Of a stretch of DNA of 64,000 nucleotides, positions 2,143 to 46,303 are shown piece after piece (the stretch's first letter is position 1; every line of letters starts with the position of its first letter). Both the position numbers and the translations under genes were made by a program. Location: NCBI RefSeq assembly GCF_000024625.1, contig NC_013407.1, positions 620,001-684,000 of the forward strand, in the 5' to 3' direction. Origin of the DNA: Methanocaldococcus vulcanius M7. Its GTDB lineage: Archaea; AGJL01; Methanococci; Methanococcales; Methanocaldococcaceae. The notes under the pieces were generated by a model, which was not told where the DNA came from, ran no database searches, and was given only the letters and a program-made list of their open reading frames with translations.

Positions 2143-3617
<1,475 letters not shown>

Positions 3618-45273: not shown

Positions 45274-45300
45274 TCAGATCACCATTAGTTGTCGCTAAGG

Positions 45301-45333
45301 AAGCTTCGGGCTTTAGCTCGGAGAGGAATTCAG
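45301..45333 (+). mobile_element. IS200/IS605-like right-end signature (isolated)
   Basis: A hairpin CTTCGGGCT-TT-AGCTCGGAG is followed by AGGAATTCAG. The arrangement (terminal hairpin, GGAGAGGA, then TCAn) is what is seen at the right ends of many archaeal IS605-family elements and at the 3' end of TnpB omega RNAs. It shares 20 of 27 bases with 45522-45548. There is no transposase ORF and little room for a left end, so it is probably a relic. Confidence 0.5.
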
Positions 45334-45355
45334 ATGAAAACCTAACGGTTTTCAT
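45334..45355 (+). other. perfect hairpin after the first IS-like end
   Basis: ATGAAAACC pairs exactly with GGTTTTCAT around a TAAC loop, directly after the TCAG terminus. It may be a terminator or part of an element end; the sequence on its far side (ATTCTCCTC) is partly complementary to GAGAGGAAT before it. Confidence 0.5.
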
Positions 45356-45403
45356 TATTCTCCTCGCTACGCTCGAAGATAGGGGAGGCGGGCGGAGATA
45401 AGG

Positions 45404-45412
45404 TTTATATAT
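45404..45412 (+). promoter_or_regulatory. TATA box of the 45.4-kb RNA
   Basis: TTTATATAT preceded by GGAGATAAGG matches the archaeal BRE-TATA arrangement. A start about 25 bases downstream, near 45433, coincides with the point where GC-rich structured sequence begins. Confidence 0.6.
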
Positions 45413-45433
45413 TCAAATTGGCTTATTATTTAT

Positions 45434-45548
45434 CGAGGCGGTCTGATCCCGCCCAATGAGCTGAACCTGCCCGATGACTCCTCGGCGACGAGGATGAGAG
45501 GGTGTTCCCAGTGGGAACCTCCACCCTTTAGGGCGGAGAGGAGGTCAG
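45434..45548 (+). ncRNA. structured RNA with omega-RNA-like 3' end
   Basis: A GC-rich stretch of about 115 bases in AT-rich surroundings, with its own TATA box. Hairpins in order: GGCGG/CCGCC (45437-45453); TCCTCG/CGAGGA with GCGA tetraloop (45479-45494); GTTCCC/GGGAAC (45504-45518); and CCxCCC-TTTA-GGGCGG (45521-45536), then single-stranded AGAGGAGGTCAG. The end resembles TnpB omega RNAs of IS605 elements, but no tnpB is present. The following bases, where a guide would be, are antisense to the end of the CheF-like gene. It could instead be an unrelated small RNA. Confidence 0.55.
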
Positions 45549-46303
45549 CGATCTTGCAGGTAGCGTAATATCCCAACGTGTTGGCAGTTTAGTAAAGTTA
45601 TCATGTATCTTAATAAAAATAACTTAACCTTTTTATCTTTTGTGCATAGATATGATAAAATTTTCCTCTTGTCTTTTATTTGAAGTATCTGCAAGACCGG
45701 CTTTATCTCTCCGTCTATTTCCATCTCCTCTATCTCAACGTCTTTTATATTGCAAAAAACCTCATATATTTTCTCTTCTCTACCTTTCTTTACTTTAACT
45801 GCTAATATTCTCTCTATTCTAACAACAAATTCTTCTTTTATTCTTTTCTCTATAAAGGTTAAATAACCATCTTCCCATGATTTAGTTTCATTATTTTTAA
45901 CATCATAAAGGATTTTTGCCTCTTTCTCGTTAAGTAGGATGTAGAATAACTTCCTTAGAAAGTTATCTATTGGGGCTTTTCCATATATTGACGTTTCAGG
46001 AGCAAATCCAATAATCACTTCTCCATTACCTTCTATTTTAACAACTAAGGATGAGTGGTATTTAATATCCTCTAATGTAGCTTTTGCAATGTCAAGAACC
46101 TTTTTTGGTAATTCAACACCTACATCTATAATATCTTCGATCTTAACCTCAATCTTTTTATCCACAAATTCAAATATTACTTTGTCTGTGTATAGGATTA
46201 TCTCTAATTTCTCCCATTTTATCATTGGTCTTTCCAATATCTTTGGAGTGATTAAAACCCCTTTTCCTGAAAATCTTCCAAATTCCCTGTTTTCTGGTTC
46301 CAT
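45545..46303 (-). CDS. CheF-like (DUF439) protein, perhaps shortened at the C-terminus
   Basis: 252-aa soluble protein resembling archaeal taxis protein CheF, which links the chemotaxis proteins to the archaellum switch: [29 protein letters not shown], a beta-rich pleckstrin-like core and a basic C-terminal helical segment (winged-helix-like). No other che gene is near, so a taxis role is uncertain. Its stop codon TGA is the complement of the terminal TCA of the omega-RNA-like element, which suggests that the element replaced the original end. GGGGGAGGGG precedes the ATG. Confidence 0.55.

Follow-up and report, generated by a model that had tools for sequence, protein, structure and literature searches.

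What does a genome gain, if anything, from an RNA gene that has its own promoter and ends in a hairpin typical of transposon right ends, but has no tnpB gene beside it? Such a gene lies in the window, the stretch of 64,000 nucleotides analysed here, which belongs to a Methanocaldococcus-type genome (G000, 1.76 Mb) and includes an archaeal rRNA operon. A sequence-only reading of the window had described a TATA box, four hairpins and the end CTTTAGGGCGGAGAGGAGGTCAG, all of which we found in the sequence at the same places, and had proposed an omega-like RNA without a nuclease, with its guide after position 45548. That proposal gains support from exact element ends, empty sites in relatives, linkage to tnpB, BLAST matches and the fold. 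In Methanocaldococcus and its relatives, this RNA, HgcC, is very probably the omega RNA of an IS200/IS605-type transposon that carries tnpB, and the window copy would be a nuclease-less derivative of it.

HgcC is a conserved RNA with an omega-RNA-like fold

Positions 45435-45557 matched the Rfam family HgcC (RF00062) over its full length (1-130) at 99.7 bits, the gathering cut-off of the covariance model being 50 bits, and copies above this cut-off were also present in congeners. HgcC was first found in AT-rich hyperthermophiles, and its function has been described as 'unresolved' (PMC5732400). The open-licence literature on the family links it to transposase genes, with sense transcription of HgcC1-3 from inside transposase genes in T. 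kodakarensis and antisense transcription from transposase genes in P. furiosus (PMC4247193), and mentions no link to TnpB guides; the northern evidence of Klein 2002 is taken here as reported in PMC4247193. No paper naming both HgcC and TnpB was found in the open-licence literature, and an earlier identification elsewhere is possible. A match to a different known RNA family had been named beforehand as an argument against an omega-like RNA; the match exists, but the difference is one of name only, as HgcC itself appears to be an omega RNA.

The scaffold of 114 nt (45435-45548, plus strand) is preceded on the same strand by an archaeal TATA box (TTTATATAT, 45404-45412), which is kept in copies across the genus and also sits between tnpB and HgcC in autonomous elements. 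The start predicted from this box falls near 45434, the first base of the structured RNA. With its own promoter, HgcC could be made without being cut from a tnpB mRNA.

On the plus strand, the scaffold comprises stem 1 (45437-45453, with the loop CUGAUC at 45443-45448 and compensatory changes in two of its five pairs), hairpin 2 (45469-45503; a stem, an internal loop and a GCGA-capped stem) and hairpin 3 (45504-45518), both of the latter drawn from the structure alignment, followed by the right-end hairpin with a UUUA loop (45519-45538; compensatory changes in three of eight pairs, 87-92% identity to plasmid TnpB right ends) and the terminal GGTCAG (45543-45548). In the window, the 22-mer CTTTAGGGCGGAGAGGAGGTCA is found a single time, and none of 100 shuffles contained it, even with up to 3 mismatches allowed. 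Across 17 aligned sequences, the proposed structure was paired in 96.6% of cells, and nine pairs had changed on both sides, more than in any of 500 shuffles or any slid control. RNAalifold, unprompted, paired the stem-1 loop CUGACC with the terminal GGUCAG; this predicted pseudoknot was paired in 97.9% of cells of the 17 sequences and is nearly invariant, without covariation, while stem 1 does covary.

This architecture could be compared with that of TnpB omega RNAs (reRNA; ISDra2, SisTnpB1 and the haloarchaeal sotRNAs), which share with HgcC a scaffold of ~116 nt, stem 1, a right-end hairpin with a UUUA loop and a terminal motif behind it, a 3′ end at the right end of the element and a target beside the TAM, and which have the features predicted for HgcC of a pseudoknot between the stem-1 loop and the 3′ end and a flank-derived guide. 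In the ISDra2 omega RNA, the scaffold measures 116 nt and has a 5′ stem 1, the loop of which forms a pseudoknot with positions -6 to -2, while the UUUA tetraloop occupies -20 to -17 (PMC10097598); HgcC copies are 114-116 nt long, with the same 5′ stem, predicted loop-to-end pairing at -6 to -1 and, in the window, UUUA at -22 to -19. Beyond the right-end hairpin, HgcC does not resemble characterised omega RNAs in sequence. At this hairpin, Rfam gave a weak match to sot0042 (E 1.3), which taken alone is at chance level but hints at the same class of RNA.

Ends, target and empty sites of the window element

The RNA of about 115 bases that had been proposed is present, but it is not the unit: the unit is a non-autonomous IS200/IS605-type element of 266 bp (45283-45548, plus strand), which a search for further copies recovered five times, nearly identical, in the same genome, plus related partial types. 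HgcC scored above the cut-off in five copies in this genome, in addition to several weak ones. Once oriented, the copies have their left and right ends in common and differ in their flanks. In the close relative G008, 97% identical at the locus, the site is uninterrupted and reads ATCAC/CGATCTTG, with neither the element nor a target duplication. The junction is CATTCAGATCAC/CGATCTTGAAGGTAGCG in G008 and CATTCAGATCAC/CATTAG...GGTCAG/CGATCTTGCAGGTAGCG in the window, and the element therefore spans 45283-45548 and was inserted without duplicating its target. Like that of the window element, empty sites were found at single-base precision for four further insertions of the own genome (empty in G008), for the HgcC copy of G004, which we take to be M. 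jannaschii (empty in G007 and G001), and for two transposons carrying both tnpB and HgcC. An empty counterpart was also found for one G007 copy.

Either TCAC or TTAC stands directly 5′ of nearly all elements. In the window, the TCAC target/TAM motif at the left junction (45279-45282, plus strand), identified from the empty site of G008, is the complement of the Shine-Dalgarno GTGA of a xylose-isomerase-like TIM-barrel gene (PF01261; 44518-45273, minus strand), whose Shine-Dalgarno abuts the left end of the element and remains intact (GGTGA) despite the insertion. On the other side, cheF (PF04283; 45545-46303, minus strand) takes its stop codon TGA from the right end, having had it from TCAC in the empty site and having it now from the right-end TCA. 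Of 14 insertions at TCAC, 10 lay near start codons of divergent genes, compared with 30% of the TCAC sites of the window (p = 0.0015), because TCAC is the complement of the Shine-Dalgarno.

The window element thus follows the IS200/IS605 rule of precise insertion 3′ of a short target, with TCAC on its left, no duplication, and bases after 45548 that match the target beside the motif. The scaffold of HgcC ends at the right end of the element and the predicted guide is flanking DNA: this putative guide, 16-20 nt of host sequence (45549-45568, plus strand), has one mismatch in 20 to the empty target site, and the same order of TCAC and guide recurs in the empty sites of relatives with 0-2 mismatches in 20. 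For one Sulfolobus TnpB, the TAM corresponds to the left-end motif and the guide to the right flank (PMC10640517), which is the arrangement seen for HgcC elements. Separately, the 10-mer GCAGGTAGCG was observed both at 45556-45565 and at the resident tnpB element (near 560-575 of L022, minus strand). In both cases it lies ~10 nt beyond the right end, in flanks that are otherwise unrelated, which could reflect chance or conversion.

At the other end, the stretch 45307-45333, previously read as a second terminus, turned out to be the left-end hairpin of the element (45304-45323, plus strand, slightly eroded in this copy) and not an RNA end, as the same hairpin occurs in the intact tnpA+tnpB IS605 element of G007 and in all sister elements. 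The left-end region also contains a short palindrome, ATGAAAACCTAACGGTTTTCAT (45334-45355, no strand assigned), common to type A and type B elements. When both end hairpins of the window copy were folded as single-stranded DNA, no signal exceeded that of shuffled sequences.

The predicted transcript overlaps the 3′ end of cheF in antisense and has its own promoter, as would be expected of a host regulatory RNA or another housekeeping RNA for which the transposon is merely the carrier. Nevertheless, each copy faces a different gene, which largely rules out a host regulator; HgcC is absent from most of the Methanococcales genomes searched, and its ends coincide exactly with those of the transposon. 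A host role is therefore highly improbable, and the earlier suggestion of recruitment as a regulator found no support, the antisense overlap being a by-product of the landing site.

Non-autonomous IS200/IS605 elements of the MITE/PATE type likewise keep both ends, contain no coding gene, cause no target duplication and use a TYAC target, whereas the window element additionally retains a complete guide-RNA gene with its promoter. Several other derivatives were observed. Near C1:573.7 kb of the own genome (L014), the left end is fused to the right end in an element of 51 bp, with a probable empty site in G008. A second non-autonomous type of roughly 340-373 bp (L024, C1:989.4 kb; L007, C1:841.5 kb; L008, C1:23.8 kb), with near-identical copies in G007 (L048, L050 and L052), has the left end of HgcC elements and a different core. 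Its 3′ ~110 nt are similar to the end of the resident canonical tnpB, as in an omega RNA of the canonical kind that stands alone. In G007 (L039 and L044) and G033 (L134), HgcC copies were seen that lack the usual left end.

Kinship with tnpA- and tnpB-bearing IS605 elements

Against 72,556 plasmids and 50,697 phages, BLAST matches of the window element were limited to the 35-39 bases of its right end and all lay at tnpB 3′ ends, including those of ISSis2 (92%), S. solfataricus pMGB1, ISDka2, an Acidianus virus and Azotobacter. The right-end hairpin is common to ISSis2, ISDka2 and the canonical element of the own genome, which contains an open tnpB frame of 405 aa (PF07282), ends in ...CTCCACCCTTTAGGGCGGAGAGTGTCA and has the same right-end hairpin as the window, ...CTCCACCCTTTAGGGCGGAGAGGAGGTCA. 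The resident tnpA is broken by three TAG stops, and an intact tnpA was present only in G007, in a tnpA+tnpB element that has its left end in common with HgcC elements. Subterminal hairpins and ends are thus held in common with a tnpA-encoding IS605 member, the left end with the G007 element.

The genome search for tnpB that the sequence-only reading had called for returned the canonical gene, which has its own 3′ omega RNA, and a second, distant tnpB-like gene (C1:359 kb), around which no element with HgcC-type ends was found; no HgcC-linked TnpB was found in this genome. The resident IS605 (L022, C1:46.5-49.5 kb) appears to split a methyltransferase-like gene, the upstream ORF being fused to the tnpA remnant and another ORF lying downstream. 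The distant tnpB-like family, of 439-456 aa, was seen in L023 and L055 (4605-5924); several congeners repeat a 37-bp sequence located around its 3′ end, and one copy in G008 directly adjoins an HgcC element.

HgcC lies divergently beside tnpB in congeners

In G001, G011 and G008, HgcC is contained in a transposon of 1345-1378 bp (~1.37 kb) that carries tnpB. Between the left end and HgcC, the strand opposite to HgcC carries the tnpB gene (358-371 aa); the two genes diverge from adjacent starts, and the 3′ end of HgcC is the right end of the transposon. The TnpBs show 55-56% identity to the first of them, with D179, E265 and D350 invariant. HgcC-linked TnpB contains PF07282 and PF01385 and gave sequence matches to TnpB/Cas12f structures in the PDB, and the N-terminal lobe of its model matches the lobe of ISDra2 TnpB (8ex9, TM 0.69 by target) in a model of pLDDT 55 overall, in which this lobe is well modelled and the remainder poor. 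The gene has the RuvC D-E-D triad, the Cas12f1-like TNB domain and the WED/REC lobe of a TnpB. These three were the only full-length divergent tnpB-HgcC units found, two of them in MAGs; in a fourth unit (G032), tnpB is 5′-truncated, towards HgcC. A scan of genome contigs gave nothing beyond two MAG records already known, and in the viral contigs neither a relative of HgcC-linked TnpB nor the RNA end pattern was found. An inverted repeat, GTCGTAAT...ATTACGAC, possibly an operator, was noted between the divergent tnpB and HgcC promoters (L054, about 2643-2665; L055, about 3312-3335).

In known TnpB systems, the omega RNA overlaps the 3′ end of tnpB (PMC12558985). HgcC, in contrast, is encoded on the opposite strand, on the 5′ side of tnpB and from its own promoter, and without the sense overlap it is classed as a variant rather than a standard omega RNA; the window element further differs from omega RNA loci in having no tnpB inside it. 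The divergent pair of tnpB and HgcC recalls CRISPR-Cas12, in which effector and guide are encoded by separate genes. One chromosomal site is occupied by a 1366-bp form with tnpB and HgcC in G011 and by a 259-bp form with HgcC only in G006, indicating that an element can become non-autonomous by losing tnpB from its interior while HgcC is kept.

We propose that the full transposon would run from TYAC through the left-end hairpin, tnpB (toward the left end), the divergent promoters and HgcC (toward the right end) to GGTCAG and the host DNA behind it. The HgcC transcript would begin at its own TATA promoter and continue through the right end into host DNA, the first 16-20 nt of which would be the guide. 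The most likely role of HgcC is to direct the divergently encoded TnpB to the empty site, that is, TCAC followed by the guide sequence, in the manner of omega RNAs; given this match, a loaded TnpB would cut element-free chromosomes and thereby favour retention of the transposon. The window copy would have lost tnpB while retaining the two ends, the promoter and the RNA, and its move would have been recent and presumably due to a Y1 TnpA in trans; for this copy we infer expression, TnpB loading, cutting and mobilisation by TnpA.

Present role of the nuclease-less copies

The chances are about even that the RNA core of the window copy is now DNA baggage in its own genome, where MITE ends would suffice for a TnpA in trans and HgcC would program nothing; this possibility bears on what the copy does today and does not conflict with an origin of HgcC as an omega RNA. 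The cognate TnpB is missing from the genome, RNA core divergence among the five own copies is 2.4% and spacer divergence 1.8%, and an 18-nt core deletion is common to two own copies, both nonetheless mobile. A core no better conserved than the spacer, together with this deletion, suggests that HgcC may be a mere passenger here. However, the window copy keeps every helix, with the pseudoknot kept through a G-U pair, and HgcC copies persist in several genomes without a linked tnpB.

It is conceivable, though rather doubtful, that a TnpB acting in trans, either the resident canonical one (C1:47 kb) or a passing cognate, loads stand-alone HgcC and brings about homing or retention. The open 405-aa frame of the resident TnpB, the right-end hairpin in which its element ends, and the fact that non-autonomous elements of types A and B have amplified recently are consistent with this, but the scaffolds differ outside that hairpin, and a TnpB is usually specific for its own scaffold. 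Equally tentatively, stand-alone HgcC elements might be guide-armed MITEs, their sole cargo being a guide gene that programs a TnpB in trans, with their own empty sites being cut. The nuclease-less element would then gain homing or retention, and the divergent tnpB-HgcC unit would have been the enabling step, by which the guide was freed from the tnpB mRNA. Stand-alone IscB omega RNAs (HEARO) are also guide RNA loci without a nuclease, although they belong to the IscB/Cas9 lineage, with another RNA and another nuclease.

Implications

The reading of HgcC as the omega RNA of an IS200/IS605-type transposon proposes a function for an archaeal RNA family that has lacked one since 2002. It also describes a TnpB lineage in which the guide RNA gene is divergent and has a promoter of its own. 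Should the thermophilic TnpB prove active, its guide of about 115 nt would be separate by nature. Furthermore, the nuclease-free copies that keep their guide gene raise the question of whether guide RNAs may spread as mobile elements themselves.
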